The translations under genes were made by a program, and so were the position numbers. From Candidatus Chloroploca mongolica (GTDB lineage: Bacteria; Chloroflexota; Chloroflexia; Chloroflexales; Chloroflexaceae), in the NCBI RefSeq assembly GCF_004762035.2, contig NZ_SIJK02000009.1, positions 106,327-144,934 of the forward strand: a DNA stretch of 38,608 bases, written 5' to 3'. The notes below the pieces were generated by a model. That model was not told the DNA's origin, did no database searches, and saw only the letters and a list, made by a program, of their open reading frames with translations. Position 1 is the first letter of the stretch, and each line of letters begins with the position of its first letter. Shown in pieces: positions 3,638 through 21,012 of this stretch.

Positions 3638-3651
3638 CAAGGGAGTTGCAG

Positions 3652-4035: not shown

Positions 4036-4426
4036 GACGGCGGTCGTCCGCAGCGATCTTGATATTGTCATTGCGCGCACGATGGCGCGTGATCTGGCCA
4101 AGGCGATGAGCTTTGGAGCCATTGATCAGGCGCGTATTGCCACTGCGGTGAGTGAACTCGCCCGTAATATTTTTCTCTATGCCGGTACTGGAAAGGTGAC
4201 TGTCAAAGAGATTGATAAGAGTGGGCGAAAAGGCATTGAAATTGTGTGCGAAGACCAGGGCCCTGGGATTCCTGATGTCGATCTGGTGATGCAGGATGGC
4301 TATAGTACCTCGCGTGGTATGGGCATGGGCCTCCCCGGGGCACGCCGCTTGATGGATGAGTTTGATCTGAAATCCCAGGAGGGCGTTGGGACAAGGATTA
4401 CATGCCGTAAGTGGAAGAGTTCATAG
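4022..4426 (+). CDS. rsbT: RsbT-like serine kinase (HATPase)
   Basis: A 134-aa GHKL-type ATPase matching the switch kinase RsbT. The N-box asparagine is N49 in SELARNIF, the G1 box is DQGPGIPD (78-85) and the G2 box GMGMGLPGARRLMDEF (99-114); the fold is complete with no extra domain. RsbT phosphorylates RsbS and RsbR and, when released, activates a PP2C phosphatase such as RsbU. Its start lies inside the end of rsbS. A perfect hairpin begins at the stop codon, so the operon probably ends here. Confidence 0.9.
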   Translation: MAQPKTAVVRSDLDIVIARTMARDLAKAMSFGAIDQARIATAVSELARNIFLYAGTGKVTVKEIDKSGRKGIEIVCEDQGPGIPDVDLVMQDGYSTSRGMGMGLPGARRLMDEFDLKSQEGVGTRITCRKWKSS

Positions 4427-4483: not shown

Positions 4484-6628
4484 TTACTGGCACGGGGCGT
4501 GTGCGCCTGATGTGAGAACGGGGAGCATTGGGACGAAGGGGACGCCTCCTTCGGTGGTGGCGAGGGCGAGGCGGCTCACTGCGAGGCTGATGGTGCGCCC
4601 TTCGGGGGCGAGGGACGCAGGGCTCGCGAGTTCGAGAGTGGTTGTGCCGGGTGGCATGAGAACGCGGATGACGCGATAGGCCCCTGTCGGGATACCGGTG
4701 CTCGCGATGGGTTGCCCATCAAGCTGTAGGGTAAGGGGGCGGTCTTCCCCATATGCTGTTGCTTCGAACTGCGCAAGCACCGGGGTGCTCCAGGCTGCCA
4801 GCATGCCGAGCCGTGCGCTTGCGCCCATCCAGCGCCAGATGCGCTGGGCGTCGCCTTCGGGTGCAAACCAGTCTTCGTTGTGTGGGTAGAGCCCCGGATG
4901 GGCGTAGGTCGGGTCGATCCGGTAGAAGCGCAGGGTTTCGTCGGCGTCGATGAGGCTGATGCCTGGCACGTCGAGGCTGCTGCCGAGCAGTTCGGCGTCG
5001 CTGGCGCTGAGGCCTTGCGCTTCGAGGGTGGCGTAGGTGATGCCAAGTGCGGCCAGGTCGCCGGCCAGGTTTGCGCTGAAGGTGTCGTTGCTCAGCGGGG
5101 TGCGGTGCCAGACGCTGGCAAACGCTGAGGCGTGTTCTGCTGGCCGATAGTCGGGTGTGCGCGCCAGGTAGCCCCCGGCGAGCGGGCGGCCGTGACAGAT
5201 CTGGTTGAGCATTTGCTGGCTGGCGTTGGTGCGTACCGGTAGTTCGATGATCGCCCCCGGCACTGGCTCGGCCTGCAACAGTTCGGCGTAACGCGGGTCG
5301 CTGCGGATCGGCACGATTGCCCACGGGGCGACCAGGTATTCGACGATGATCAGGCCGACAATAAGGATCGGGGCGACGAGGCCTCGCCCGCGTTGCATCA
5401 GCAGTTGCAACCCAAGCCCGGCGACGAGCGCGATCGGCAAGAGCGCCAGCGCCACAAAGAGGCTCGGGCGGCTCGCGTTGCGAAAGGGCGTGACCAGGTC
5501 GAGCAGCAGGAACGGCAGCGGGAGGCCGGTATGCCAGTCACTAACTTTAAGCTCGGGGCCGAGCGCGAGGATCAGCAGGACGATGGTCAAGCCGAGCCAC
5601 GGCCACGTCTGCCGCCATGCCTTCACCAATGCGTAGAGCATCAGGCCAAGCACGCCAAGGCCAAAGGTGGCCCCGATCTCGACGCCAATCGGGTGCCACG
5701 CCTCAAGGGTTTGGCTGGCCCACGGCCCCCAGAGCGGGTGCAGCATATTGAGGGGTATTAGGTCAACCAGCGCCATGCTGTGAAAAACCTGCACCTCGTA
5801 CCAGTTGCGTACCGTATTGGCCCCGAGACGATCCAGCGGCCAGACATAGAGCAGCAAGGTGGCGGCCCAGATGGCCGCGATGCCAATGGCAACGGCGAGT
5901 CGCCGCCGGCGTATTGCCCAGTCACGGGTCAGGATCAGCACAAGACCAACATGGAAGAGCGAATAGACGGCGCTGAAGAGGCCGTAGTATTGCGCCGAGA
6001 GCGTCGTCAGCAGCAGGGCACCGGCGGCGGCCAGCGTTGCCGTGATCGTCTGGTGTTCGAGTGCGTGCATGAGCATCAGCACATAGACCGGCAACCACTG
6101 CATGGCGATCAGTTCCATCGAGCCGCCGAGAATGCGTTGCAAGTGGTACGGCGAGGCGATGACCACGAACCCGGCAAGCAGCGCCGGCAGCAGAGTGAGC
6201 CCGCCGGCCCGTGCGAGCCGGTAACTGGCGTAGCCCCCGATCGCAAACGAGAGCAGCGTCACCGTATTGAACCCGGCGACGGGGCCGAAGCCCGCAATCA
6301 TCGGCCAGACCATCACCGCACTGGGCATACTCACCGGTTGCCAAAAGAGGTCGACACTCTGCGGAAAGAAGAGATAGCTGGTCAAAAAGAGCGGCCAGCG
6401 CTGGCTGATGGCGGTATAGCCCCACCAGAGGTTCCAGATGCCCTGACCTGAATCGACGGGTACGCCGCCCTTCTGGATCACGCCATGCCCCCACGAGAGC
6501 ACCATCGGCCAGGTGAAGATCACGCCGACCAGCAGAAAGCCGAGCAACACACCGAGCCGTCTGAGCAACGGTTCAGCAGGTGCCACTGCGGTGAGTGGGA
6601 GGGTAGCGGGTGTCGTCTCGCGGGCCAA
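4484..6628 (-). CDS. Polytopic membrane protein, WNxWW family (paralogue 1)
   Basis: A 714-aa protein with about 12 hydrophobic segments over its first ~430 residues and an extracytoplasmic C-terminal half. It shares with the proteins at 12292-14487 and 17140-19290 an N-terminal helix ending in TWP, the motif WNLWW (65-69), a following FFPQ, a mid-protein PFRNASRP and the motif HGRPLAGGYLARTPDY. The layout resembles GT-C glycosyltransferases or YfhO-like proteins, but I cannot name the reaction. The start is TTG 6628, preceded by a strong GAGGAG six to seven bases away. It is the last gene of the glycan locus, 15 bases after the GT4 gene. Confidence 0.8.
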   Translation of the reverse strand: MARETTPATLPLTAVAPAEPLLRRLGVLLGFLLVGVIFTWPMVLSWGHGVIQKGGVPVDSGQGIWNLWWGYTAISQRWPLFLTSYLFFPQSVDLFWQPVSMPSAVMVWPMIAGFGPVAGFNTVTLLSFAIGGYASYRLARAGGLTLLPALLAGFVVIASPYHLQRILGGSMELIAMQWLPVYVLMLMHALEHQTITATLAAAGALLLTTLSAQYYGLFSAVYSLFHVGLVLILTRDWAIRRRRLAVAIGIAAIWAATLLLYVWPLDRLGANTVRNWYEVQVFHSMALVDLIPLNMLHPLWGPWASQTLEAWHPIGVEIGATFGLGVLGLMLYALVKAWRQTWPWLGLTIVLLILALGPELKVSDWHTGLPLPFLLLDLVTPFRNASRPSLFVALALLPIALVAGLGLQLLMQRGRGLVAPILIVGLIIVEYLVAPWAIVPIRSDPRYAELLQAEPVPGAIIELPVRTNASQQMLNQICHGRPLAGGYLARTPDYRPAEHASAFASVWHRTPLSNDTFSANLAGDLAALGITYATLEAQGLSASDAELLGSSLDVPGISLIDADETLRFYRIDPTYAHPGLYPHNEDWFAPEGDAQRIWRWMGASARLGMLAAWSTPVLAQFEATAYGEDRPLTLQLDGQPIASTGIPTGAYRVIRVLMPPGTTTLELASPASLAPEGRTISLAVSRLALATTEGGVPFVPMLPVLTSGAHAPCQ

Positions 6629-6643
6629 CGTGATCTCCTCAAT

Positions 6644-7867
6644 CTACAATCTGAAATGGGATAACTGCTCATACAAATGTTCAAGATTGGCCGCGAGCAG
6701 GTCGTCGCCATAGCGGGCCAGCGCCTCGCGGCGGCCCTCGGTGGCGAGCCGACGCCCAAGATCCGGTTCGCGCAACAGGCGGATGATCGCCGCTGCCAGC
6801 GCCTCGACATCGCCGTATGGCGTCAGCAAGCCGGTGCGTTCGTGGCTAATCACCTCGTTGCAGGCGACGACATCGGTGGTGATCACCGGCGCCTCGGCGA
6901 GCAAGGCTTCGATCAATGGGATGCCAAAGCCTTCGTAGCGACTCGGCGCAACAACAACGGCGGCTTCGCGCAGCAGACGCAGCTTCTCGGCTTCGCTGAC
7001 CCTGCCACGCACGTCGAGGTGCGCGGTGACGCCACCGGCCTCGGCGAAGCGCCGCAGTTCGGCGGCCCCGGCTTGGTTGTGGCTCACCATAATGCACCGT
7101 ACATCCGGGATGGTCTGCACGACCGTCGGCAAGGCGCGGACGAGCAGATCAAAGCCTTTGCGGGGCACGAGTTGGCCAATGAAGAGGATCGTCGGGTGCG
7201 TCGTCTTTGCCGCGGGCGCTGTGTTGGCAAGCAGATCGGCGTAGAGCTTGAAATCGAGCGCGTTGGGCAGCACGCTGATCTTGGCTGCCTCGACGCCGAG
7301 CTTGCTCAGCAGGTCGCGTTCACCGTGCGAGAGGGCGACGAGGTGGTCTACGTGTAGCAGCGGCGCATGAATGAAGTAGTTGCGGAATGCTCGTCGTGGG
7401 TAGGCCCCTCGCGCCAGGGATCTGAGCAAACGTTGCGGCGTGGTGAGCAGGTTTTCGTAGCGTAACGGCGCTTCGAGTGGGCGCTCGCGGTCAACCACCA
7501 GATCGCCGTCGTGCAGCAGGCCATGCACCGTCAGCACCGTCGGAATACCGAGACGCCGCGCTGCCAATACGGTCTGATAGCCGAGCAGGCTGCGCAGATG
7601 GTGCAGATGGATGACATCAGGGCGTGTCTCGACCAGCAGGCGCAGCAAAGACGTTGGCGCAACAAAGCCAAGCGTTGGCGCACGATGCACCGCGATGCCC
7701 CCGTCGAGCCAAGCGCAACGCGGCGTCTGGCCAGGATACCGCCGGTCGTGGTACTCGTGCGCGACAACGGTATGGCCGCGCCTGAGCAGCGCCCGCGCCT
7801 GGATCTGCTCGGGCCGACTGGGAAACGCCGGGTCAAACCCGTAGGTTGTGACGATCAGAATACGCAT
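6644..7867 (-). CDS. GT4 family glycosyltransferase
   Basis: A 407-aa cytosolic retaining glycosyltransferase with two Rossmann-like halves. The N-terminal half starts MRILIVTTYGFDP with a glycine-poor nucleotide-sugar fold; the C-terminal half has FIGQLVPRKGFD with K237 and the E-x7-E motif (E312, E320) of YEGFGIPLIEAL, which in this family binds the sugar-nucleotide donor. I start it at ATG 7867, seven bases after the stop of the SGNH hydrolase; the frame stays open nine codons further upstream but would then overlap that gene. Sugar and acceptor cannot be told. It is part of the minus-strand glycan operon. Confidence 0.9.
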   Translation of the reverse strand: MRILIVTTYGFDPAFPSRPEQIQARALLRRGHTVVAHEYHDRRYPGQTPRCAWLDGGIAVHRAPTLGFVAPTSLLRLLVETRPDVIHLHHLRSLLGYQTVLAARRLGIPTVLTVHGLLHDGDLVVDRERPLEAPLRYENLLTTPQRLLRSLARGAYPRRAFRNYFIHAPLLHVDHLVALSHGERDLLSKLGVEAAKISVLPNALDFKLYADLLANTAPAAKTTHPTILFIGQLVPRKGFDLLVRALPTVVQTIPDVRCIMVSHNQAGAAELRRFAEAGGVTAHLDVRGRVSEAEKLRLLREAAVVVAPSRYEGFGIPLIEALLAEAPVITTDVVACNEVISHERTGLLTPYGDVEALAAAIIRLLREPDLGRRLATEGRREALARYGDDLLAANLEHLYEQLSHFRL

Positions 7868-7874
7868 AAAGTGT

Positions 7875-8690
7875 CTACTCAAACCCCGAGGCAAGCCAGG
7901 CTGCTTCGGCGAGCCGGGCCTGGCCGCGGGCGCTCAGGTGAAAATAGTCGACGGGCGACACATCGGCGGCGGTCAACTCGCTTGCAAAGACGACGCCGTT
8001 ATCGTAGCGACACCGGGGCGTGCTGGCACAGACCTCGCCGAGCACCGCGTTGTACTCGGCGACGCGCTGGCGCACCCGCTCGCGTCGGGCAACATCCTCG
8101 GTGGCCTCCGAACGCGGCTCGGCCAGGGCCGACGGACAGACGGCAAAGGTCTCCCACACTAGGAGGGCACGACGGTCGTTGCGGAAGAGGGGCAGCAGAC
8201 GAGTCGGATCAGGGATGCTCATCACCAGGAGGCTCGTCTGGGGCGACTGCTCGCCGAGTTGCGTGAGCGCCGTGGCGAACTGGGTGCGAAACGTCGCGAC
8301 GGGCGTCATCGCTGCTTCGCTGGAGGCACAGGCATCATTGCCGCCCATCATCACCGTCACATACTCGACCTCCAGGGCCGACGCAATGGACAACTGAGTT
8401 GGCAGATCGGCCATGCGTGCCCCGACGCGGGCCAGGTTATAGACATTGCCAGCCAGGGCCGGGTTGCGGGTGGCCAGGCGGAGCGCCACACTATTCACCG
8501 AAGGATGGCCGCCAGTCGCCCAGGCATAGGCCGTATTATCGCCAAAATAACGCGGCCCCGCCCCAAAGCCCTGGCTCAGCGAATCGCCTGTAGCGGCAAG
8601 TGAATTGGGTAGCTGCGTTTGCGCCTGTACCGCAACGGGGAGTTGCGCCAGGATGACAAAGACGATGATGATCAAGAAAAATCGAGACAA
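7875..8690 (-). CDS. Secreted SGNH/GDSL-family hydrolase
   Basis: A 271-aa protein with a classical signal peptide (hydrophobic residues 4-20, likely cleavage after VQA at 23). The SGNH blocks are complete: GDS with nucleophile S37, block II glycine G90, GGND (116-119) and D248-x2-H251 in DYFHLS. Family members are esterases, lipases or carbohydrate O-deacetylases; beside glycosyltransferases a role in removing acyl groups from an exported glycan is a reasonable inference. The start is TTG 8690 with GGAGG seven bases upstream. The upstream 184 bases hold a duplicated palindromic repeat, so this gene may be transcribed separately from the one before it. Confidence 0.9.
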   Translation of the reverse strand: MSRFFLIIIVFVILAQLPVAVQAQTQLPNSLAATGDSLSQGFGAGPRYFGDNTAYAWATGGHPSVNSVALRLATRNPALAGNVYNLARVGARMADLPTQLSIASALEVEYVTVMMGGNDACASSEAAMTPVATFRTQFATALTQLGEQSPQTSLLVMSIPDPTRLLPLFRNDRRALLVWETFAVCPSALAEPRSEATEDVARRERVRQRVAEYNAVLGEVCASTPRCRYDNGVVFASELTAADVSPVDYFHLSARGQARLAEAAWLASGFE

Positions 8691-8769
8691 AAGAGAGCCT
8701 CCTTATCATACTATGTATGCCGTGCTGCGTCAGCAGTGTGTCAACGAAGTTTTCTACTCTGTTGCGGAG

Positions 8770-8853
8770 TTCAGCCGGCTAAAGCCGGCACTCCAGAATA
8801 CCAGAAGGGAGTGCCGGCTTCAGCCGGCTAAAGCCGGCACTCCAGAATACCAG
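8770..8853. repeat. Duplicated palindromic repeat (35-bp unit twice)
   Basis: A 35-bp unit beginning TTCAGCCGGCTAAAGCCGGC occurs at 8770-8804 and 8819-8853. The 14 bases between are part of an inverted copy, so arms GAGTGCCGGCTT (8809-8820) and AAGCCGGCACTC (8831-8842) form a hairpin. It fills most of the gap between a GT4 gene and the SGNH hydrolase gene and looks like an interspersed REP-type element. Confidence 0.8.
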
Positions 8854-8874
8854 GAAATGTAGTTGACAGACGAG

Positions 8875-9984
8875 TCAGATCTTCCGATACACGTTCTCGA
8901 CGCGATCCGTCACGGCGGACCAGGCAAACTGGGCGGCCCAGGCTGGGGCTGCGACGGCCATTGCGGCCCGGCGAGCCGGGTCGTCGAGCAGGCTCTGCAC
9001 GGCTACGGCGAGCGCCTCGGGGTCACGCGGGGTGACGAGCAAACCGGTGCGGCCTTCATCCACCACTTCGGGAAAGCCTCCGAAACGCGAGGCGACCACA
9101 GGTAACCCACACGCCTGCGCTTCGACCAGACCAATGCCAAAGGTTTCGCTGGCGTGACTGGTTGCCACCAGCAGATCCACGCTGCGGTAGAGTTGCGGCA
9201 ACGTCTGGCGTTCGAGGGCACCGAGGAAATGGACGCGGGCCTGGAGATTCAGTTCGTGGGCCAAGTCTTCGAGCGCCTGGCGTTCTTCGCCGTCGCCGGC
9301 GATCAGCAGATGGGCCGTGGGCATCTGCGCGAGCGCATGGATCGCCGTGGCGACGCCTTTCCAGGGTTGCAGGCGCCCGACAAAGAGTAGCAGCGGGGCT
9401 CCGGTTGGGAGGCCGAGGCGCTCGCGCAGCGCGAGATCGGCTGGCCCTGGCTGAAAGAGGTTCAGGTCAATGCCGTTGAAGATCACCTCGGGCATCTGCG
9501 TATATCGGCGGGCCACCGTTTCGGCATTGAAGCGCGAACACGAGACCGCCCCGTCGAGGTGACGGGCCAGCAGGCGGTCGCCCCGATAGAAATCTTCGCC
9601 GTGACAGCCGAGCAAGACCTTTGCCCCGCTGAAGCGGCGGGCGAGCAGCGCTGGCCCCATGTCGTACGGTTTCTGCAGGTGAATGATATCGTAGCCGCCC
9701 CGGATCAGTTCGGGCAGCGCCGCCACGGCCATACTCAAGCGCTCGAGCAACTTCGCCTCGGCATAGGCCCGTCGCAACAACGGCAAGGCCTGAAACCAGG
9801 CGCGTGGCACAAAAGGAAAGGTCAGCACGCGCACCCCCGGCGCAGGCTCGCGTCGCGAACCAACGCCGCCGATGATCGTCACCGCGTGCCCGCGCTGCGC
9901 CAATTCGCGGGCAAGATCCCAGACAAAACTCTCGACCCCACCGAATTTTGTTGTCGTGGTTAAATTATAGAGCGCAATTCGCAT
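8875..9984 (-). CDS. GT4 family glycosyltransferase
   Basis: A 369-aa retaining glycosyltransferase of the GT-B fold. It has the acceptor-side GGVESFV loop (15-21), LLLFVGRLQPWKG with K209, and the E-x7-E motif (E280, E288) of SETFGIGLVEA. The protein has no membrane segment but the first domain contains basic and hydrophobic patches (LPELIRGGYDIIHLQKP) usual for enzymes working on lipid-linked acceptors. Translation starts at ATG 9984, three bases after the stop of the preceding GT-C gene, so the two are likely co-translated. Confidence 0.92.
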   Translation of the reverse strand: MRIALYNLTTTTKFGGVESFVWDLARELAQRGHAVTIIGGVGSRREPAPGVRVLTFPFVPRAWFQALPLLRRAYAEAKLLERLSMAVAALPELIRGGYDIIHLQKPYDMGPALLARRFSGAKVLLGCHGEDFYRGDRLLARHLDGAVSCSRFNAETVARRYTQMPEVIFNGIDLNLFQPGPADLALRERLGLPTGAPLLLFVGRLQPWKGVATAIHALAQMPTAHLLIAGDGEERQALEDLAHELNLQARVHFLGALERQTLPQLYRSVDLLVATSHASETFGIGLVEAQACGLPVVASRFGGFPEVVDEGRTGLLVTPRDPEALAVAVQSLLDDPARRAAMAVAAPAWAAQFAWSAVTDRVENVYRKI

Positions 9985-9987
9985 TGT

Positions 9988-12291
9988 TTACCACGCTGTA
10001 TTCAAAAGCATCTTGATCACGGCTCCCTGAGCAAAAAAGAGCAACGGAAAGAGCCATGCTCGCCACTGGCGTTGACGGGCCTCGCCTTGCAGCGCATAGT
10101 GAGCCAGCACGACCGCCAGCAACGGATAGGTAAAGCCCCAGATCCGTTCGACTTCGCGGTTGAAGAGCCCGCCGACCCACATGCCAAGCACGCAAAACGC
10201 CGTGCTGAGCAAAACCAGATCGAACGGGTTCAGTGGCTCGCGCCCCTGTAGGCGTCGGCTGCCCGCGATGATCAGCGCCGCAAAAGCCCCCATGCCCCAC
10301 GGGGCCAGATACCAGAAATAGGGGCCGATGTTTGCGCCAAGATACTTGACATAAAAAGCAAAATTCGGTGGCAAGAACGCCTGGTCAACGGGGCCTTCGA
10401 TCAACTGTTTGCCGACCACGGGCGCATTGATCGCCGTTGCCTCACGCGAGGCTTCAATGATGTTAAAGCCTGAGACGAGGTAGATCAACAGATAAAAACT
10501 GACCAGCACCACCCCAGCGAGCACACTCTGGCGGAGCATATGCCGCACAAGTGGCCCAAGGGAGGGTCGCCCTTCGGCGTGCCAGGCGCGTATCAGGCTC
10601 AGGATCACCGCAGCGACGCCGAAAAAGAAGAGCTGCGTGGCGACATACGAGAAGAAGACCCCAAGCGCCGCGAGGCTGCCGGCCAGCAACGCCATCCACG
10701 GCTTGGCGTTGCGCTCGAGCGCAAAGAAGAAAGCCACCGCCGTCAATGCATTCAACGCATTGAAGACGCCGTCCATCGAGGTGACGCTGTAGACGAGGTG
10801 GCCCGGCATAGCTACAAAGATCGCCCCGGCAACCAGCGCCAGCCGTGGCCCCCCGAGCTTCCAGCCAAGCCAGAGCGCCGCAGCGGCGCTCAGCGCACTC
10901 AAGATGATCGCCAGCCAGCTCGTTGCCACCGCACCTGGCCCGAAGATCTGCTCGACTCCCCAGAGTAACAGCACGCTCCCTGGGGGATGGTTGCTATTGT
11001 GGAGCGCCATGTCCGGCGCTTCTTCCACATAACGCCCGAGAAAGCCGATTGGATCACCGGCGACCCGCCAGGTATCCTGCTGATAGTCGTACTCGCTGTC
11101 GCGAAAGACCTCATAGAGCGAGTCGTGCCCGAGCACCGTCACTTCGAGGGCAACGGGTACCAGCACGGCCCCCAGCAGCACCAGCGCTGCCCCGAGGCGA
11201 GCCATCCGTGCGCCTTGCAGCGAGAGACGCATCACCAGCCAGAGCCAGCCAACAAAGAGCAGTGTCGGCAGGATCACCAGCCATGTCCAGTAGGGTTCGG
11301 GATAGACGCCGGCCTTGAGTGGCCAGACGCTATGGTGCCCATTGGCGCGTTGCACCAGATTGATCCCGCCCACGAGCATGATGCTCCAGAACGCCATGCC
11401 AAGCAGATCGCGTTGCAGCAGACTCAGCGTTGGTTTGGCACCAGTGATGCTGCGCACACCAAGCAACCCGGCGACAGCCCCAGCCAGCCCCAGGGCGACC
11501 GGGATTTGCATCCGTACCACGCCCGGCCCGGCAGGGACAAGCCCGGTTGCCACGGCCATGCCATAGGCAACGATGCCACCAGCGACGATCACCCCGGCGA
11601 CCCAGACGGGCGTGCGTAACAAGCGCATCAGCCAGAATGCGGCAAACGCGAGCGCCAGATTGACGATGATCTGGCTGACGGCAGGCGTCACCGGCCCGGC
11701 GATCGGCAAATGAATGCCGGTAAAGCTAAAAAACTGCACGCCCAGGGCACGGTTATTATTTGGATCGAGCACCGTGGGACTCTCGATGGTCAGGCAGAGA
11801 TCCGCCCCCGCTTGCTGGTCGCCGCCGGTGAGCAGCGTATAGTGGCGGGGCTGGGGCGGCAGCGCAATCGGCACTCCAGGACCGTTGCCGGGCCGCAGCG
11901 TTGCCGTCTCGATCCCCAGGGGCAAGGCATACGCCCCTGAGATCTGCGTTGTGACCAGACTCCGCGCTGCGCTGCCAGCATGGGGCACACAGACCTCACC
12001 GGCGCCATCGGTCCAGCGAAAAAGACCCGCCTCGCTCTCCTCAAAGTTGAGCAGACCATCGTAGAGCCCCGGTGTACTGGAGATCGCCGGAATCCGCATG
12101 GGCGTATCGGTCTGAAAGCCGGCCCACGAAAGCAGGATGACCAGCACCACCAGGCCAGCCTGGATCAGCAGGGCCGTGATGTTGACGCGTAGCTTGCCTT
12201 TAGCGACAGACTGCGTCTGGCCCGGCTCGCTTGCCTCGTTGGCTGCGGGATCGGCGTGTGGCGTGCGGCGCTCCTCAGAAAGAGACTCCAT
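9988..12291 (-). CDS. GT-C-like membrane glycosyltransferase
   Basis: A 767-aa polytopic protein. A short cytosolic acidic N terminus is followed by one membrane helix (about 36-58), an extracytoplasmic domain to about residue 205 and then some dozen hydrophobic segments. The stretch EEAPDMALHNSNHPPGSVLL, with an acidic region followed by HPPG, resembles the first-loop signature of GT-C enzymes such as PMT/ArnT-type transferases that use polyprenyl-phosphate sugars. Its ATG directly follows the stop of the preceding gene (TAAATG), and the next gene starts three bases after its stop. The donor and acceptor are unknown. Confidence 0.8.
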   Translation of the reverse strand: MESLSEERRTPHADPAANEASEPGQTQSVAKGKLRVNITALLIQAGLVVLVILLSWAGFQTDTPMRIPAISSTPGLYDGLLNFEESEAGLFRWTDGAGEVCVPHAGSAARSLVTTQISGAYALPLGIETATLRPGNGPGVPIALPPQPRHYTLLTGGDQQAGADLCLTIESPTVLDPNNNRALGVQFFSFTGIHLPIAGPVTPAVSQIIVNLALAFAAFWLMRLLRTPVWVAGVIVAGGIVAYGMAVATGLVPAGPGVVRMQIPVALGLAGAVAGLLGVRSITGAKPTLSLLQRDLLGMAFWSIMLVGGINLVQRANGHHSVWPLKAGVYPEPYWTWLVILPTLLFVGWLWLVMRLSLQGARMARLGAALVLLGAVLVPVALEVTVLGHDSLYEVFRDSEYDYQQDTWRVAGDPIGFLGRYVEEAPDMALHNSNHPPGSVLLLWGVEQIFGPGAVATSWLAIILSALSAAAALWLGWKLGGPRLALVAGAIFVAMPGHLVYSVTSMDGVFNALNALTAVAFFFALERNAKPWMALLAGSLAALGVFFSYVATQLFFFGVAAVILSLIRAWHAEGRPSLGPLVRHMLRQSVLAGVVLVSFYLLIYLVSGFNIIEASREATAINAPVVGKQLIEGPVDQAFLPPNFAFYVKYLGANIGPYFWYLAPWGMGAFAALIIAGSRRLQGREPLNPFDLVLLSTAFCVLGMWVGGLFNREVERIWGFTYPLLAVVLAHYALQGEARQRQWRAWLFPLLFFAQGAVIKMLLNTAW

Positions 12292-14487
12292 TTATGGCGT
12301 ACTCCTGAACATCAGATCAACCTCTTCTGCCTGAAGTGTTCCGCTCGTTGCACTTCGCAAGACAACCTCAGTCTTGCCTGCCTCAAGGTCAAGGGGCACC
12401 TGCACCGTCTGGCGACCCGCTTCAAGCGGGATCGTCGTGAGCGTTGTTGCGCCGGTCGCAACTTGAAGACTCTCGGCGGCAGGTACGGTCACGGTCAGCG
12501 TCAGCGTTACCTGACGCGGCTTGGCACTATAGATCACGATCGTAGCAGCATCCGCTTGCATTGTCCGCACGATCTGCGTACCGTCTTCCTCGGGTGCCTC
12601 CCAGCCCTCACCGATGCCAAGAAAGGGCAACGGATCGCTCGGTGGCACAACGCGATAGGTCAGCACGGCCCCAGCTGGTTCCTGATCGCCGAGCGTCAGC
12701 GGGCGGAGCAAGCCCGAGGCACTGCGGGCATCAGAGGCAACAAAGGTCGCCCCCTCGCGGCGCGGCTCGGCCCCGCCTGCCGCCGCCTGGGCGACTTCTT
12801 GCATCGGCGTAAATTGCAGCGCCCCGCCTGCGGAATGGATCATGACATATCGAATATCAAAGTAATCAAAGAGGCTGGCAGCAATCGTCGGCATATCTTG
12901 CGCAATGATATCCGGGGCCGGCTCGGCATAGGCGAACATTCGGATCAGCGGCAACTCCTCCAGAATGGTATACGGCATCCGCCGCGATGTATAGCCTCCG
13001 ACCAGCGGTTTTTCGTGGATGATCTGGTAGAGCATATAAAACGGGCTGGTTGTATAGTAAAACGGAGCCTCAAGAAGCGCAAAGTCATCTGGATCGGCGG
13101 CCAGTTCGTGATAGATGCTGGGAATATAGATGCCAACGATCGGAAAGGGCACCGTCAGATTGTCGATCACCAGCAGCACGATCAGGGCTGGGATCAAAAT
13201 CCACGCCGCAATCCCTGCCCGTCGTTGCGCTTTGCGCGGTTCGCTGTTCGCCGTCGTGGCACCGTGCCTGCCCGTCAAGAGCCAGAGCGTGCCATAGGCG
13301 GCGAGCATCGCCAGCGCCAGCACGGCCAGCACCATAAAGCGGATCGGGTAGCGAAAGATGCCGACCAGCGGCAACTCAAAGAGGAGCGTGGCCGGCAGCG
13401 GGATACCGCTTTGCCAGCCCGCAACCTGGAGCACTGGCCCCAGCGCGAGCACGATAAAGAGCACCATGCTCACCAACCAGAAAAGACTCTCGCGCCCGCG
13501 CAGCCCCAACAGTGCCAGGAGCAATGCGATCACCCCCAGATATGCGGTCTTATTCTGGATATGGGTATTGGCTTTGTACGCCTGGGCTTGCTCGGCGAAG
13601 GTGCCCCAGATCGGGTGGATCTGACTCGGAATGACGAGATCGGCCAGGTCGACGGACTGTTCGCGGCGAAAATCGGGGCCACCTTCGGTCGCCGCCGTAG
13701 GCGTGACCGCAGCAATGCGGGCCGTCGCGATAATCAGGGGCGAGGTCAGCACCAGCGCAACAACCACCGCTCCAACAAGGGGCAGGATTGCACTGATTCG
13801 GCCCATAACGCCACTGGCTCTGGACTGAGCTTGCATCTGGCTGGTACCTGGGGCAAAGAGCATCCAGAGCGCGTACCAGCCTGCCCAGATCAGGGCAAAG
13901 AGAAAATATTGCCAATCGGCGAGCATATTCAGCGCCAGCGCTGCCCCGGCCAACACGATCATCACCAGCGAGGGCCTGCGGTAGGCGTAGCGCAACATCA
14001 GCACCGCCAGCGGCAACGGCCATGCCGCCGTCATATGCGTATGCCCACCGAGCACCTGCGCAAGCAAATAGCCACTGGTCGCAAAAACAACCCCGCCAAT
14101 CAGCGCGGCCCGACGATCACCAGTCACATCCTCGGCGAGCAGATATGCCAGAAAACCACTCAGCGTCAGATTCAGCAGGATGACAAAATTATACGCCACC
14201 GTCAAGCCAAAGAAAAAACTAATAGGAAAACTGATCAAAAAATTGATCGGATTAAGCGTTTGCAGCAACAGGCTCGTGCCTTGCGGATGGTAGAGCATCG
14301 GGGTGAAATAGGGATTGATCCCTTCGAGCAGCGCGGTACGCAACCACCACATATTCCACATATTCTGCCAGCTATCAAACGCGTTGCCTGGTACAGCGGC
14401 GGTGACATAAGCCGCAAGGGGCCAGGTAAGCAGGATCGCCAGCCCAGCATAGAGCAAAAGCGCTATCAACCTCCATATCAGTCTCAT
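12292..14487 (-). CDS. Polytopic membrane protein, WNxWW family (paralogue 2)
   Basis: A 731-aa membrane protein of the same family as the products of 4484-6628 and 17140-19290. Shared marks are an N-terminal helix ending TWP (21-23), WNMWW (44-48), YHPQG (66-70), a mid-protein FRYPIRF and the motif HEKPLVGGYTSRRMPY in the extracytoplasmic part. About 12 membrane segments are followed by a soluble C-terminal domain ending in a beta-rich region (TLTLTVTVPAAESLQVATG). The function is not established; a membrane glycosyltransferase or polymer-handling role fits its position between a flippase and a GT-C gene. Its stop codon touches the start of the next gene. Confidence 0.82.
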   Translation of the reverse strand: MRLIWRLIALLLYAGLAILLTWPLAAYVTAAVPGNAFDSWQNMWNMWWLRTALLEGINPYFTPMLYHPQGTSLLLQTLNPINFLISFPISFFFGLTVAYNFVILLNLTLSGFLAYLLAEDVTGDRRAALIGGVVFATSGYLLAQVLGGHTHMTAAWPLPLAVLMLRYAYRRPSLVMIVLAGAALALNMLADWQYFLFALIWAGWYALWMLFAPGTSQMQAQSRASGVMGRISAILPLVGAVVVALVLTSPLIIATARIAAVTPTAATEGGPDFRREQSVDLADLVIPSQIHPIWGTFAEQAQAYKANTHIQNKTAYLGVIALLLALLGLRGRESLFWLVSMVLFIVLALGPVLQVAGWQSGIPLPATLLFELPLVGIFRYPIRFMVLAVLALAMLAAYGTLWLLTGRHGATTANSEPRKAQRRAGIAAWILIPALIVLLVIDNLTVPFPIVGIYIPSIYHELAADPDDFALLEAPFYYTTSPFYMLYQIIHEKPLVGGYTSRRMPYTILEELPLIRMFAYAEPAPDIIAQDMPTIAASLFDYFDIRYVMIHSAGGALQFTPMQEVAQAAAGGAEPRREGATFVASDARSASGLLRPLTLGDQEPAGAVLTYRVVPPSDPLPFLGIGEGWEAPEEDGTQIVRTMQADAATIVIYSAKPRQVTLTLTVTVPAAESLQVATGATTLTTIPLEAGRQTVQVPLDLEAGKTEVVLRSATSGTLQAEEVDLMFRSTP

Positions 14488-14571
14488 AACAATAGACTCC
14501 TACGCAGTATGCCCAGGGTTATGGCCCTACGCGCTGCTGTGCATCGCGCAAATCCTGCCCGATGCATACCT

Positions 14572-16227
14572 CTACAATATACGCAGCAACCACCGCTTGA
14601 GCGGCAGGCGCGTCTGCTCAAGCTGGCGCCGATCTTGTGGGTCGAGGCCGCCGGTGAGCCGTAACACAACCGCAAACAGGGCGGCCCCGGCCACGACCAC
14701 GGCGAGCACCCAGAGCCCCAGCCAGAGCCGGGTGGCAATGGTTGCATCGTCTGCGGGGATTGGCAGCCAGTCACGCATCAACAGCAGCCCTGCGCCCATC
14801 GCCCCAGTCGCCAGGCTCACTCGCAGCGTGAAATTCCACGGCCAGCGCAGCCCCAGCAAACGGTAGCCACTCGCCGTTGCCCAGAAACCCGCGGCGACCC
14901 GGGCGCTGCCAAAGGCCAGCGCCACCCCGGTGATGCCCAGGATCGGCGGCAACCAGAGCGCCATTGGCACAATGACGACCAGGGTCAATAGACGTGAAAC
15001 AATGATAATGCCCAGTTTTTCATGCACAATCAGTGCATTATGTGCCGTCGTCAGCAGACACTCAAGAAACAGACACGGCACAAGCACCCAGACAATCGGG
15101 GCTGCGTCGAGGTATTGGGGCGACAGTACTTTCAGCGCCGGTGCAGTTAAGAGCACGAGTCCCACGCCACCTGGTACCATCAGCAACACCTGGAGCCGTA
15201 CGAGCGATTGATAGGCCCCATTCACGGTGCCGCCCTCGCCGGCACGAACACGGGTAAAGAGGGGCACCTGCACGCCGACCATTGGTGTATAGAGGTAACT
15301 CAGCGCCATGCGTACCAACGAGGTTCCCGCCCAGAGCAGGGCGACATCGCTGACATCTTGCGCCAGAAAGATCGCAAACCCGGCCCCTGCCACAAAGTCG
15401 GTAATCGTCATTAAAAACGACACCCCAGAGTAACGGATAAACCCTGGTGGCAAGGCGGCACGCAAGCTCACTGGTTCGCGTGTGCCGCCGGCAAGCTCTG
15501 GCCGCACGCGATCTTCCTCACGCCAGAGCGCGATAACCCGCCACATCCCGCTGATGACCACCAGGGTCGGCGCAATAAGCATCGCCAGCAACACCCCCAG
15601 GATATCCCAGCCGGCCAGCAGCGCGGCGGCACTCAGCAGGGGCGGCAACAGTCGTGCCGCCAGATCAATGCTATTCCAGGCCCGTTGGCGAAAAAAGCTC
15701 GCCAGGTAGGCCATCAGCATATCGTAGCAGACCCCGAGAAAGAGCAGCACCACGACAGCAACAATAATCAGAACGCTATGATTGGTCAGAAAGTCTAGGG
15801 CTGCCGTCTGTGCGCTGCTGTCGAGGCGCGTATCATTTGTTACTTGATCCTGGAGAAAGCCCAGGTACGGCCCACTCATCACGATCAGGCCACCGCTAAA
15901 GAGCAAGAGCAAGGCCATCTGGGCGGCAAAAACGATCGTCAGTAGGCGCAAGACCGCCCGTGTACCACCGGCCTGCATCGTCTCGGGAATATACTTTGGC
16001 AGGGCGCGTGACGTGCCAAGATCAATCGCCGTCCCTGCGCCATTATTCGTATTGCTAATCAAGGCCAGCAAGCCAAAACTTGCCGGCGAGAGAATATTCA
16101 GCTTGAGCAGGTTGGTCACCACTTCGGCAATCATGCGTACCGGCACAAAAAGCGTATTCCAGAAGACCGCATTCGAGACGCGGCTCGCCAGGGAGGGTGG
16201 TTTGCTGGTGACAGGATCCGAGGCCAT
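14572..16227 (-). CDS. Wzx/MATE-like polysaccharide flippase
   Basis: A 551-aa protein with 12-14 hydrophobic segments spread evenly along its length. The opening NAVFWNTLFVPVRMIAEVVTNLL with SPASFGLLALI is typical of oligosaccharide flippases of the MOP superfamily (Wzx/RfbX), which move undecaprenyl-linked glycan units across the membrane. It sits among glycosyltransferases, which supports this. The 84 bases between its stop and the next gene hold nothing I recognise. The methyltransferase upstream ends four bases before this gene's ATG. No clear Wzy polymerase is identifiable, though one of the unassigned membrane proteins could fill that role. Confidence 0.88.
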   Translation of the reverse strand: MASDPVTSKPPSLASRVSNAVFWNTLFVPVRMIAEVVTNLLKLNILSPASFGLLALISNTNNGAGTAIDLGTSRALPKYIPETMQAGGTRAVLRLLTIVFAAQMALLLLFSGGLIVMSGPYLGFLQDQVTNDTRLDSSAQTAALDFLTNHSVLIIVAVVVLLFLGVCYDMLMAYLASFFRQRAWNSIDLAARLLPPLLSAAALLAGWDILGVLLAMLIAPTLVVISGMWRVIALWREEDRVRPELAGGTREPVSLRAALPPGFIRYSGVSFLMTITDFVAGAGFAIFLAQDVSDVALLWAGTSLVRMALSYLYTPMVGVQVPLFTRVRAGEGGTVNGAYQSLVRLQVLLMVPGGVGLVLLTAPALKVLSPQYLDAAPIVWVLVPCLFLECLLTTAHNALIVHEKLGIIIVSRLLTLVVIVPMALWLPPILGITGVALAFGSARVAAGFWATASGYRLLGLRWPWNFTLRVSLATGAMGAGLLLMRDWLPIPADDATIATRLWLGLWVLAVVVAGAALFAVVLRLTGGLDPQDRRQLEQTRLPLKRWLLRIL

Positions 16228-16231
16228 ACGC

Positions 16232-17071
16232 TTAGTCTACCTTTGTGAGGGCAAGTTCAAACATGCCCACATACCAGCGCCGTTGCGCCCGATACGCCAC
16301 CCCTTCGAGCCCGACCGCCCGCAGCGCCGTCCGCACCGCCCGTCGCGACGCCTTGCGGCTCACAAAGGTGCCGGCCTTCAATTCCGCCTCGCGCAGATCA
16401 TGGGCGCGAAAGCCATAACGCTTGCAAAGACGTACAAATTCGTTGTAATGAAAATAGTGCATCGCGGACAGGCGCTGCATATCGCGGAACGCTGCGCCTT
16501 GCTTGCTGCGTCCGCGCCAGGCAATGATCCGCTCGGCAACCGGGCGCGGCAACCAGTTGATGCCGGCCAGATGATAGTGCGGATCGATCCAGGCACGCCG
16601 GTTGATTGCCGTCAGCAGAACCGTGCCGCCGGGGCGCAGCACTCGCGCCAGTTCACCGAGCACCCGGTACGGATCTTGCACATGCTCGAGCACATCCCAC
16701 GCCGTCACGGCCTCAAAATGGGCCTCAGGGAACGGTAGCGTCTCGCCGGCTGCGTTGAGCACCGGCACATGCAGGTCATAGCGGGCGGCACGCAACGCGA
16801 TAATTTGGCAATAGGCCGGATTATATTCACAGGCCGTCACCTGCGCCCCTTCACGCGCCGCCGCCACCGCAAATCCGCCCATCCCGGCCCCAAGATCAAG
16901 CAGACGCAACCCGGCGAGCGGGCCGACCGTATCGCGCAGCATCGCCAGCCGCTCGTCCTGATACTGCTCCTGATGAAGCCGTCGCTCACGCCATTGCGCA
17001 TAATCGCGCCGCCACTGCATATGCGTCAACCACGGCTCGATGGCTGTCTCAAGTTCTTGCATTGATCCCAT
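16232..17071 (-). CDS. Class I SAM-dependent methyltransferase
   Basis: A 279-aa methyltransferase with motif I LLDLGAGMGGFA, the acidic post-I residue in VTACEYNP, and the UbiE-like motif VTAWDVLEHVQDPYRVLGELARVLRPGG. The C-terminal ~100 residues form a basic extension (FVSRKASRRAVRTALRAVG). In a glycan locus it may methylate a sugar or lipid carrier, an inference only. Start choice is uncertain: ATG 17071 has AGAAG six bases upstream, ATG 17062 is also possible, and the frame is open to a GTG at 17143 overlapping the previous stop. That longer form would be encoded by a perfect hairpin, which I think unlikely. Confidence 0.85.
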   Translation of the reverse strand: MGSMQELETAIEPWLTHMQWRRDYAQWRERRLHQEQYQDERLAMLRDTVGPLAGLRLLDLGAGMGGFAVAAAREGAQVTACEYNPAYCQIIALRAARYDLHVPVLNAAGETLPFPEAHFEAVTAWDVLEHVQDPYRVLGELARVLRPGGTVLLTAINRRAWIDPHYHLAGINWLPRPVAERIIAWRGRSKQGAAFRDMQRLSAMHYFHYNEFVRLCKRYGFRAHDLREAELKAGTFVSRKASRRAVRTALRAVGLEGVAYRAQRRWYVGMFELALTKVD

Positions 17072-17112
17072 TCCCCGCTTCTCGTGTGTAGGGCGCGCCT
17101 GCCCCCATCCCC

Positions 17113-17151
17113 CGCGTGGAGTGAGCGGTCGCAGACCGCTCACTCCACGCG
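17113..17151. terminator. Perfect 18-bp palindromic hairpin across a stop codon
   Basis: Arms CGCGTGGAGTGAGCGGTC (17113-17130) and GACCGCTCACTCCACGCG (17134-17151) pair perfectly around GCA. The right arm contains the stop codon (17140-17142) of the minus-strand gene ending there and also encodes its last three residues (RVE). It lies between that gene and the methyltransferase gene and could terminate, attenuate or protect mRNA; it may equally be an inserted palindromic repeat. There is no T-run. Confidence 0.6.
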
Positions 17152-19290
17152 AAGCTCATACACCGCTATGCCCAGTTCCCGCGGTGTGCCCTCTTCGGGG
17201 GTCACGCTGGTGCGTAGTTCAAATTCATGCATGCCTGCTGGTACCTGGATGGTGAAGTGATAGTCCCGCATTTCACGGTGCAGCGGAAAAGACGCGAGCA
17301 TCTTTTCGCCATTGATAGCCCACAACTCTACCTGTTGACCGTCACTTCGCTCTTTGGCCTGGATCGTCAGGGTCAGCGTGGCCTCTTCGTTGGTCGGATT
17401 GACCAGAAAAAAACCGGCCACGCCCTCACTCCAGCGCCACTGGTAGGTCTCATTTTGCTCGAATTCGTGCCATCCTTCACCCAGAAAGACAAAGGGTGCG
17501 CAACGATCCTGGTGCAACGGCAGTTCGTAGGCTCGAAACCGTCCATCATCATACCACGGTGTCAGATTCCCCCCGAGACGCGCCATCACCGCCCGCGCCC
17601 GGTCTTCGCTACCTTCACGCGTCAGTGCTGGCTCGATCACGACATACCGTAGTTGATAGTAGCACTGCATTGCTGCCAGCGCATTGGCATCGAGGCTGAT
17701 GATGTCAGCTTCCGGCAAGACCAGCATCCGCCCGAGGTGTTCAGGCAATGGGCTATAGAGCAGCGTTGGGTAATAGGGCGGACGCGCCACGTAGCCGCGC
17801 AGGATCGGTTGCCTATGCACAATCTGGTTGATCAGGGTGCGGCTGTTCGTGTTATTTTCGATCGGTAGATCCACCACCACACCTGGTTCCCGTGCGGCGA
17901 TCTGCGCGTAGACCTCGGCCCGTTCCATCGTCATGGTCGTGCGGATCGGCGGCAAAAGTTCGACAAAAGCGAGCACGCCAATGACGCCCAGCACGATCCC
18001 GAAGGTACGTGGGCGCATCCGTTCGCGCATGCGTGCCACCGCGAGCGCCGCAAAGATCGTGAAGACCATGATCGTCAGCACCCCAAACAGATTCGGTCGG
18101 CGCGCGGTGGAAAGACCGGGGAGCGCCTGAAGCAGTTGGTACGGCATCGGGATGCCCGTCTCGTTGCCGAGAATGTAGAGGATCGGCCCCATCGCAAAGA
18201 GCCAGGCGACGACCGCGACGACCACGAGCCGCCAGTGCTGGCGGCCATACCAGAAGATGCCCAGCAAACCCAGCGCCGAGAGAACCCATCCCGCTGCGGT
18301 GTACGAACCTTCGACCATGCCGTAGGGGGCCATCTCGACCAGGAATTGCTCGGCTTGCATTGACCAGAAGGGATGGCGCCCCGATGGGAAAAAGAGCCCC
18401 AGCAGATCCGCCGAATAGCCCTGGGTATAGAGTGCCCAGAGATCCAGGGGCAGGTTCGGGTCGCTCAGTTCGTTGCGCAGCATCAGGATCAAGGGGAGCG
18501 TGATCAGCAGGGCCAGGCCCCCAAAGAGGCCATAACGCATCATCACACCCAGCGGATGCTCGGCGCGGATCAGGCTCACCACGGCCCACACCACCCCAAA
18601 GAGTACCGTGACCAGTGCCCAGTACCAGTCGGTATAGAGCACCGCCCCGAAGGCGAGCGCCGTGATCGGAACGAACCACCAACTCGTCTTGCGACTGAGG
18701 TAGATCAGCGCAACTACTGCGAACACAAGCCATTGCATCGTCACAAAATTGAGTTGCCCCGAGTCGAGTTTGGCAACGTGAAACGGGCTTGCCGTCAGCA
18801 GCACGCCAGCCACAAATGGCCCCAACACCCCCGGCGCAAAGGCGCGCGCCAGCAGAAAGCCGGCGTATCCCGTCAGCATGATCGCCACGATCGCCGTCAC
18901 ATTATAGGCCGCCACCGGCCCGAGCGTCAGCGTCACCGGGACAGCCGTCAAGACCGCCACCGGATTGATCGTCTGCAACACCATCTGCAAACCCTCGGGA
19001 TAGTAGAGCAGCGGCGTAAAAAAGGGATTCATCCCATGCTGAACCGCATACCCTGTCCACCAGAAGTTCCAGATATTCTGCGGCGCATCAGGCGTCTTGA
19101 TATAAAAATAGAGATTATTGCCCGCCGTGAAATAGTGGCTCGGCAGCGACAGAATCGCCGGCCAAGTCAACCACAGCGCCAGGACAGCATACGCCGCGAG
19201 GATGCCCAGATGTGTGCGCAGGCGTAATCGTGTAGGTGCTACTTCCATCTTTGCGCCTTTGCGTCTTTGCGTCAAATTATCAGCCAACAT
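17140..19290 (-). CDS. Polytopic membrane protein, WNxWW family (paralogue 3)
   Basis: A 716-aa relative of the products of 4484-6628 and 12292-14487, with LTWP (41-44), WNFWW (74-78), YYPEG (96-100), the mid-protein TARRPNLFG and HRQPILRGYVARPPYYP. About 12 membrane segments precede an extracytoplasmic part that ends in a beta-rich domain (GVAGFFLVNPTNEEATLTL). The start is ambiguous. ATG 19290 has GAGGAGG 11 bases upstream, but then residues 5-14 (NLTQRRKGAK) are mostly translation of the interspersed repeat core. ATG 19248 gives 702 aa and would use AAGG from the repeat as ribosome site. The last codons lie in a perfect hairpin. Confidence 0.8.
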   Translation of the reverse strand: MLADNLTQRRKGAKMEVAPTRLRLRTHLGILAAYAVLALWLTWPAILSLPSHYFTAGNNLYFYIKTPDAPQNIWNFWWTGYAVQHGMNPFFTPLLYYPEGLQMVLQTINPVAVLTAVPVTLTLGPVAAYNVTAIVAIMLTGYAGFLLARAFAPGVLGPFVAGVLLTASPFHVAKLDSGQLNFVTMQWLVFAVVALIYLSRKTSWWFVPITALAFGAVLYTDWYWALVTVLFGVVWAVVSLIRAEHPLGVMMRYGLFGGLALLITLPLILMLRNELSDPNLPLDLWALYTQGYSADLLGLFFPSGRHPFWSMQAEQFLVEMAPYGMVEGSYTAAGWVLSALGLLGIFWYGRQHWRLVVVAVVAWLFAMGPILYILGNETGIPMPYQLLQALPGLSTARRPNLFGVLTIMVFTIFAALAVARMRERMRPRTFGIVLGVIGVLAFVELLPPIRTTMTMERAEVYAQIAAREPGVVVDLPIENNTNSRTLINQIVHRQPILRGYVARPPYYPTLLYSPLPEHLGRMLVLPEADIISLDANALAAMQCYYQLRYVVIEPALTREGSEDRARAVMARLGGNLTPWYDDGRFRAYELPLHQDRCAPFVFLGEGWHEFEQNETYQWRWSEGVAGFFLVNPTNEEATLTLTIQAKERSDGQQVELWAINGEKMLASFPLHREMRDYHFTIQVPAGMHEFELRTSVTPEEGTPRELGIAVYELRVE
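19249..19276 (-). repeat. Interspersed repeat core (copy 2)
   Basis: On the minus strand this reads TTTGACGCAAAGACGCAAAG followed by GCGCAAAG, ending directly at the alternative ATG 19248. With copy 3 it brackets a 38-base spacer between two genes. Depending on the true start it is either leader or coding sequence. Confidence 0.75.
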
Positions 19291-19314: not shown

Positions 19315-19343
19315 CTTTGTGCCTTTGCGCCTTTGCGTCAAAA
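19315..19343 (-). repeat. Interspersed repeat core (copy 3)
   Basis: On the minus strand this reads TTTTGACGCAAAGGCGCAAA and onward. The TGA in it (19338-19340) is the stop codon of the DUF2079 gene. No terminal inverted repeats are visible around this copy. Confidence 0.75.
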
Positions 19344-20843: not shown

Positions 20844-20983
20844 GCTCTCTTTCTGCCCCATCCCTACCCTGGGTGCGCGGGCCTCTGGCCCGCCCTCCCA
20901 GGTTCACAATGGTTTACCCTTTAGGCCGGGAAGCCCGGCAGCTTTAGCGCCGGGAGGAACGCCCCCGCTTTAGCGGCTTTAGC

Positions 20984-21012
20984 TTGACGTTTTCGCACGC
21001 CCATGCTATAAT
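20984..21012 (+). promoter_or_regulatory. tnpB promoter, leaderless arrangement
   Basis: TTGACG (20984-20989) and TATAAT (21007-21012) are 17 bases apart, and TGC before the -10 gives an extended -10. Transcription should start about 21018-21020, only two to four bases before ATG 21022, and no ribosome site precedes the ATG, so the mRNA is probably leaderless. Confidence 0.75.

Follow-up and report, generated by a model that had tools for sequence, protein, structure and literature searches.

What might a glycan gene cluster do with three widely diverged versions of one membrane protein? The question is raised by a locus of Candidatus Chloroploca mongolica (Chloroflexota, Chloroflexales), a member of a genus of filamentous phototrophs; no published work on glycan biosynthesis in Chloroflexales was found among the literature matches listed. 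The locus occupies the window, by which we mean the whole stretch of DNA analysed (38,608 nucleotides, positions 106,327 to 144,934 of NZ_SIJK02000009.1), which is the end of a contig in a genome of 6.3 Mb. The original prediction held that three open reading frames (ORFs) encode divergent copies of one unnamed family, and that these act as membrane glycosyltransferases on lipid-linked sugars. Our analysis leads us to regard it as likely that the copies, here called A, B and C, form an unnamed family of GT-C glycosyltransferases with a mode of action like that of YfhO, GT136 or AftD. The three genes are:

17140..19290, minus strand: copy A, 716 aa, predicted GT-C core with a C-terminal module resembling a carbohydrate-binding module (CBM); BLASTP to copies B and C, AlphaFold model
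12292..14487, minus strand: copy B, 731 aa; BLASTP to copies A and C, orthologues in other genera
4484..6628, minus strand: copy C, 714 aa, TTG start; BLASTP to copies A and B, AlphaFold model

That these are three divergent copies of one family is borne out by their translations, which contain all the motifs first noticed: FTWP, LTWP and LTWP; WNLWW, WNMWW and WNFWW; FFPQ, YHPQG and YYPEG; the mid-protein PFRNASRP, FRYPIRF and TARRPNLF; and, in the soluble half, HGRPLAGGYLAR, HEKPLVGGYTSR and HRQPILRGYVAR. We regard the copies as true homologues because pairwise BLASTP gave 27-31% identity, with E-values of 2e-36 (31% over 517 positions), 2e-42 (28% over 510) and 1e-51 (27% over 749). Purifying selection acts on all of them, the ratio of nonsynonymous to synonymous substitution rates (dN/dS) being 0.10-0.20 in 6/6 comparisons with orthologues from two genomes of the same genus.

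The predicted fold provides the most direct indication of function. AlphaFold2 models of copies A and C (30-row alignment) reached predicted local distance difference test scores (pLDDT) of 90.8 and 89.9 and predicted template modelling scores (pTM) of 0.90 and 0.89, respectively. Compared without direct superposition, they have a closely similar order of helices and strands and share their best structural matches, and the concern that predicted structures would fail to match one another did not materialise for these two copies. Foldseek against the PDB, run with copy A only, returned in rank order AftD (5e-9), STT3 (from 3e-8), AglB, DPY19, PglB, Emb, AftA and ArnT, followed by CBM6 and CBM35 domains. 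Comparison by VIA matched copy A to STT3 (Z 25.2, 462 residues, 5.9 Å), AftD (Z 23.4, 470 residues, 4.5 Å), PMT (Z 19.9, 350 residues, 4.7 Å) and ArnT (Z 17.2, 440 residues, 5.4 Å), and copy C to STT3 (Z 23.8, 453 residues, 5.6 Å) and AftD (Z 22.4, 466 residues, 4.4 Å). The tail of copy A (residues 598-716) matched CBM6 (Z 11.2, 111 residues, 3.1 Å), and that of copy C matched beta-sandwich domains, both from clostridial binary toxins and from a cellulose synthase chain, presumably BcsB (Z 9.4-10.1). Besides GT-C proteins and CBM-like tails, no other fold spans the core among the best 50 VIA matches per model, with the exception of 9ub7_B, a glycosylphosphatidylinositol (GPI) transamidase chain that matched copy C with Z 9.9. 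From the helix list of the model we read about eleven membrane helices, a GT-C core spanning residues ~20-445, an outer dome at ~445-595 and, last, a beta-sandwich of CBM-like character. As modelled, the membrane core of copies A and C is of the GT-C glycosyltransferase fold.

Within this core a candidate active site can be recognised. Position 68 (copy A numbering) lies at the start of helix 68-84, after the helices at 24-47, and corresponds to the following codons:

19087..19089, minus strand: Asp68 of copy A, predicted catalytic base, at the start of the first outer-loop helix
14374-14376, minus strand: Asp38 of copy B, equivalent of Asp68
6452-6454, minus strand: Asp59 of copy C, equivalent of Asp68

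An acid is found here in 90/90 homologues (88 Asp, 2 Glu). This 90-row set, selected by score (>300), profile start (<=30) and profile end (>=640) and cleared of near-identical sequences, speaks for full-length members, partial ORFs and shorter remote members (many matching to ~490) having been dropped; two of its rows (L006 and L007) are the same gene of C. mongolica with different ends. Throughout the set W74, P98, G368, P476, Q489, H492 and R503 are invariant, and an Arg stands at 397 or 398, directly before helix 399-424. The first outer loop is long and carries D-x-x-Q-x-x-W-N-x-W-W; the region with HxxPxxxGYxxR, whose Q, H and R are among the invariant residues, falls in the dome, and we infer that H492 and R503 contact the donor. 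Similar arrangements are described in the literature. The GT-C catalytic acid sits after the first membrane helix, as in GT136, where D31 is needed in vivo and in vitro (PMC11127046), and in DPY19, where it is Glu71 (PMC10154233); an Arg ahead of transmembrane helix 10 is reported for STT3 and Glyco_transf_22 (PMC7801869); and a "luminal dome" core is common to DPY19, oligosaccharyltransferases and arabinosyltransferases (PMC10154233).

Profile comparisons identify the nearest relatives. With hhalign, whose E-values here are for a single comparison, and after removal of family members (for example L118) from the reference sets, the 90-row family profile aligned with PTPS_related (18 sequences; probability 99.1, E 5e-19, 352 columns) and with YfhO (30 sequences; probability 99.0, E 3.7e-18, 242 columns), indicating homology over the membrane core in the former and over part of it in the latter. 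Sets drawn from the same loci scored 0.3 (MATE), 0.2 and 0.1 (GT4s) and 0.1 (methyltransferase). In a run that still contained L118, an Asp of PTPS_related aligns under D68. PTPS_related (PF10131, clan GT-C) is given as of unknown function in PMC7801869, and YfhO (PF09586) is a GT-C that adds N-acetylglucosamine to teichoic acids (PMC8035078) from a sugar linked to undecaprenyl monophosphate (PMC8035078, PMC11898649). Together with the GT-C fold and the outer-loop acid in 90/90 homologues, these profile links to PTPS_related and YfhO support the initial proposal of a membrane glycosyltransferase for lipid-linked sugars.

The family is nevertheless not classed as PTPS_related, YfhO or STT3, because in each case the defining Pfam match or motif is missing. 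The Pfam model of PTPS_related matches 0/3 window copies at E<=1, and by sequence the family is a relative of PTPS_related, not a member. YfhO matches 0/3 window proteins, is not among the 13 Pfam families found for 30 family members, and gives no match in the C. mongolica genome at E<=1e-5. The motifs WWDYG, WWDxG and WWxYG occur in 0/90 homologue rows, the first of which we take to be the hallmark of STT3 (PF02516); STT3, PglB and AglB do have a core and dome fold in common with the copies (Z 15.8-25.2), and a search for the STT3 family in the phylum gave partial matches in 2/41 genomes only. AftD, the best Foldseek match to copy A and second to STT3 in kind by VIA (Z 23.4 vs 25.2), is at 1,312 residues nearly twice as long and has other extra domains, and identity of such chains to the copies is 11-14%; the mycobacterial arabinofuranosyltransferases AftD and EmbA/B/C also bear carbohydrate-binding modules (PMC11127046, PMC3044687). 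Another close system by description is GT136 (ORF12 of Citrobacter youngae O1), which combines a GT-C core, a C-terminal CBM, the essential outer-loop Asp D31 and a MATE flippase in its cluster, and whose closest example by sequence is ArnT according to PMC11127046. Copy A resembles it in having a C-terminal CBM6/35-like domain at 598-716, and, unlike the GT136 system, the window has no recognised pentofuranose-donor gene; among 12 UbiA matches in the genome, the 5 scanned with NCBIfam all stayed below the phosphoribosyltransferase cut-off.

Database look-ups agree that the family has no name. Pfam (at E<=1) and PHROGs returned no family for copies A, B or C, and an NCBIfam match to STM3941 (E 0.41) was taken as chance, leaving no usable family in any of the three collections. 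Matches in a PDB sequence-profile search to EMC6, aquaporin and similar proteins (E >=0.53) were likewise dismissed as chance, and no credible match to a family of non-transferase function was found. At least 8 copies occur in the C. mongolica genome, one being a remote match at E 4.8e-9. The family matches 34/41 genomes (C. mongolica and 40 relatives) at E<=1e-8, with at most 13 matches in one genome, where matches can be pieces of one gene, and 115/301 sampled genomes of the phylum (C. mongolica included) at E<=1e-10; in the latter search three candidates were scored per genome, so copy numbers are floors. In many remote members the match is largely confined to the GT-C core and ends near profile position 490-590, so the C-terminal part is not universal in the family. 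A one-pattern scan of named genome contigs found 51 loci, 49 with Chloroflexota titles and one each from a Deltaproteobacteria (L079) and a Gracilibacteria (L083) metagenome-assembled genome (MAG), which we do not accept as proof of spread beyond the phylum. On the latter contig (JAAUTF010000402.1), which is possibly a mis-binned piece of a Chloroflexota genome, up to 4 family ORFs or pieces are present, and the tree places one of them within an Oscillochloridaceae group.

Why should three copies be kept side by side? In a quick maximum-likelihood tree of the 90 rows, with Shimodaira-Hasegawa-like approximate likelihood ratio (SH-aLRT) support only, copies A, B and C belong to distinct groups (11, 11 and 15 rows, respectively), all with support of 100 and all including other genera. 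Recent tandem duplication of co-located copies was rejected on pair identities of 26% to 52%, some pairs being partly aligned. The copies are embedded among the following genes:

24450..26888, minus strand: unk24450, an 812-aa membrane protein with no Pfam match
22258..24486, minus strand: PMT_2 and TPR membrane protein (PMT22258; Pfam PMT_2 2e-8, TPR_19 2.7e-5)
19338..20861, minus strand: DUF2079 membrane protein (Pfam 7.3e-51), conserved in the cluster
16232..17143, minus strand: S-adenosylmethionine (SAM) methyltransferase (Pfam Methyltransf_11 2.3e-20), conserved in position
14572..16227, minus strand: Wzx/MATE-like flippase candidate, with no Pfam match of its own but matches in its ortholog alignment
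9988..12291, minus strand: PMT_2-type GT-C (PMT9988), 767 aa (Pfam PMT_2 2.8e-6)
8875..9984, minus strand: GT4-type cytoplasmic glycosyltransferase (Pfam Glycos_transf_1 1.3e-45)
7875..8690, minus strand: GDSL esterase (Pfam Lipase_GDSL_2 1.3e-14)
6644..7894, minus strand: GT4-type cytoplasmic glycosyltransferase (Pfam Glycos_transf_1 6e-34)

Eight other loci (L190, L191, L042, L045, L055, L063, L044 and L086), the first two from the same genus, share, apart from gained or lost genes, the order unk24450, DUF2079, family, methyltransferase, flippase candidate, family, GT4, GDSL, GT4, family. Among named-contig loci with family ORFs of >=400 aa, 14/48 have >=2. From the tree and gene order, the copies are three old clades held together in a cluster conserved across Chloroflexales. 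Old paralogues kept together under purifying selection are the pattern to be expected of non-redundant enzymes, and, as far as sequence comparison goes, separate clades in a conserved cluster fit the original idea of a different sugar per copy. In Ca. Chloroploca sp. Khr17 a second member of the copy B clade, 43% identical, lies beside copy B (L191, 6984-9050, minus strand); it is absent from the window and from the Ca. C. asiatica stretch (L190).

The tail of the copies defines a module that is found in other membrane proteins as well. We built a hidden Markov model (HMM) of it on an 88-row alignment and applied it to the ORFs of the fetched loci, in one pass and then with iteration. In the window it lies at:

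17143..17538, minus strand: module of copy A, residues 585-716 (module HMM; VIA match to CBM6)
12298..12666, minus strand: module of copy B, residues 608-730 (module HMM)
4544..4933, minus strand: module of copy C, residues 566-695 (module HMM; beta-sandwich fold matches)
11698-12108, minus strand: module of PMT9988, residues 62-198 (domain E 0.087 before and 4.7e-20 after iteration)
26037-26435, minus strand: module of unk24450, residues 152-284 (domain E 3.3e-4 before and 1.8e-20 after iteration)

Direct hhalign comparison of the family tail with PMT9988 (columns 75-198; probability 89, E 2.2e-6) and unk24450 (columns 173-312; probability 85.5, E 5.7e-6) agrees with the HMM, and the PMT9988 orthologue of Ca. 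C. asiatica is matched in a single pass (E 5e-4). In that pass the best domain E among non-family ORFs was 1.3e-10, and 16 ORFs plus unk24450 fell below 1e-3; after iteration 26 non-family ORFs bear the module (22 distinct genes, excluding copies and the window's own). It is present in 25/586 non-family ORFs (>=300 codons) at loci with a family gene vs 1/189 at loci without one, and, among ORFs with >=6 hydrophobic segments, in 23/100 vs 0/52, counts in which overlapping loci contribute some genes twice. Exactly one hydrophobic segment precedes the module and at least three follow it in 23 of the 26 carriers. The exceptions are L191 18048-20000, which the end of the locus truncates, and L061, neither of which has a segment ahead of the module, and L166, where four segments precede it and none follows. 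Pfam assigned nine carriers to GT87 (2), PMT_2/PMT (1), DUF2298 (1), TPR (1) or no family (4). The HMM hits, segment layout and Pfam classes lead us to conclude that several types of GT-C beside the family bear the module. The tail of PMT22258 resembled it by eye, but the HMM gave no match there even after iteration.

By its predicted fold the module would be extracytoplasmic, and only from the CBM6/CBM35-like character of that fold do we infer that it binds sugar. It is possible, though we consider it doubtful, that several GT-C subfamilies (the WNxWW family, PMT_2-, GT87- and DUF2298-type proteins and unnamed ones) each acquired it, in one case at the C-terminus and in the others behind membrane helix 1, and use it to dock on a single shared acceptor glycan, to which every subfamily contributes its own sugar or linkage, forming an extracytoplasmic assembly line. 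Three carriers, one of them probable, deserve mention. In L061 (9700-12558) a DUF2298 membrane protein (Pfam 3e-89) beside a family copy has the module near its N-terminus, and DUF2298 may be involved in surface glycans. On contig C82 of C. mongolica (L166, 2000-3466, minus strand), at a locus without a family gene, a 489-aa TPR protein has it at the C-terminus and adjoins a DPM-like GT2 with C-terminal hydrophobic segments. On contig C33 of the same genome (94319-94639, plus strand), a match to the copy A module only (query 608-713, 30% identity, E 2.2e-4) lies inside an 897-aa open frame, which by this match is probably a further carrier.

Taken with the fold models, the sequence evidence makes it most likely that the copies are extracytoplasmic transferases that use polyprenyl-phosphate sugars. 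We propose that a GtrB/ArnC-type enzyme, whose gene lies in another part of the genome, would synthesise such a sugar in the cytoplasm. The sugar would then be flipped, possibly through the Wzx/MATE-like protein encoded in the cluster, and each copy, with its loop Asp as base, would transfer it outside the membrane to a surface glycan, either complete or still being extended, that the C-terminal module keeps in place. Differences in donor sugar, in the position on the acceptor or in the linkage formed probably distinguish these long-separated copies. GT136 provides a precedent, as it combines a GT-C bearing a C-terminal CBM with a MATE flippase (PMC11127046). The genome has 56 GT2 matches, and three ORFs were compared with the PDB: that of L162 matched ArnC (3e-64) and GtrB (1e-43) over nearly its full length and has two C-terminal hydrophobic segments, and those of L166 and L160 matched dolichyl-phosphate mannose (DPM) synthase first (3.5e-17 and 5e-16). 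Judged by these matches, lipid-monophosphate sugars can probably be made.

Several observations weigh against this proposal. The window showed no GT2 donor synthase, none of the 56 GT2 matches being listed on its contig (C160). The GtrA flippase is absent from the genome at E<=1e-3, in a search that was positive in 7/14 control genomes. The flippase call for 14572-16227, which had no PDB profile match, rests on 3/10 rows of its ortholog alignment matching Polysacc_synt (best 5.2e-5), and we regard the MATE/Wzx role as tentative. Pfam matches among 30 family members are weak, with PTPS_related in 5/30 (best 1.7e-4) and STT3 in 3/30 (best 1.1e-3); DUF2079 appeared in 1/30. A PDB sequence-profile search of the family gave nothing credible, and hhalign matched neither DUF2079 (probability 1.9) nor PMT22258 (0.5), two further likely GT-Cs of the locus, which therefore stand outside the profile kinship. 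The evidence on fold comes from models of copies A and C, in which H492 and R503 may face the active site. Likeness of fold without activity also exists, as in PIG-U, an inactive GT-C relative (PMC7801869).

PIG-U lends some plausibility to the idea that the copies are non-catalytic scaffolds or sensors that bind glycan or lipid-linked sugar, in which the carbohydrate-binding-like module might suffice for function by itself. An acid in 90/90 homologues, together with the invariant Q, H and R and an Arg before a late helix, would be hard to explain other than by catalysis, and among the alternatives we give this one the least credence. En bloc transfer of an oligosaccharide to protein from a polyprenyl-diphosphate carrier, as by STT3, PglB and AglB, would agree with STT3 chains being the top VIA matches of both models, and with the GT4s and flippase candidate in the locus. 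Yet the lack of the STT3-type motifs in all 90 rows speaks against oligosaccharyltransferases, at least eight paralogues in one genome would be unusual for them, and the CBM-like tail and AftD match favour a glycan acceptor; we consider this explanation improbable.

The cytoplasmic GT4s and the Wzx-like candidate could also belong to a pathway in which the copies serve as surface-glycan polymerases or ligases, in a Wzy- or WaaL-like role on a GT-C scaffold, with diphosphate-linked repeat units as substrate. Among those ORFs of the window that were scanned with Pfam, none was recognisably Wzy-like, which favours this role. The presence of several copies per cluster argues against such a role, as does the monophosphate-linked sugar used by the profile relative YfhO (PMC8035078, PMC11898649), and we judge it very improbable. 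Transfer of single sugars from polyprenyl monophosphate by a YfhO-, GT136- or AftD-like mechanism is the explanation that we favour.

Further features of the window lie within or beside the cluster. The DUF2079 and PMT22258 genes flank a 1.4 kb gap with a TnpB-type ORF (21022-22107, plus strand; Cas12f1-like_TNB 1.8e-22, OrfB_IS605 1.3e-11), just upstream of which is a TATAAT promoter-like site (20984-21012). Since the corresponding spacing is 7 bp (L190) and 221 bp (L191) in two relatives of the same genus, with no TnpB match in those stretches, we interpret the TnpB ORF as an insertion in this lineage. Near copy C, on the opposite strand, is a CTP_transf_1-type membrane protein (2921-3637, plus strand; PF01148, 2.4e-5), presumably of the CDP-diglyceride synthase or dolichol/phytol kinase kind, with relatives near the copy C gene in L190, L086 and L056; a polyprenol kinase here, if such it is, would suit lipid-sugar chemistry. 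Beside the glycan cluster, STAS-domain and HATPase_c ORFs overlapping by 14 bases (3646-4426, plus strand; Pfam 5e-13 and 1.1e-12) are perhaps a partner-switching pair. Terminator-like sites were at shuffle level (16 vs 15.2) and promoter-like sites numbered 10 vs 5.1; neither was used in the argument.

The family is new but its kind is known, since uncharacterised GT-C families are not rare and a comparable one is in print: component 27, a dark YfhO-like bacterial GT-C family with a median of about 665 aa, which we liken to the present family by the description in PMC10584680. What is new is the C-terminal module and its recurrence in neighbouring GT-C types, two of them in the window. Our results add an unannotated family to the set of enzymes probably responsible for assembling surface glycans on the outside of bacterial cells, and offer a residue-level hypothesis in the acid of D-x-x-Q-x-x-W-N-x-W-W and the motif HxxPxxxGYxxR. 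That one module is common to different GT-C types suggests that acceptor recognition can be exchanged between enzymes as an independent unit, and this would aid the prediction of acceptors from sequence.

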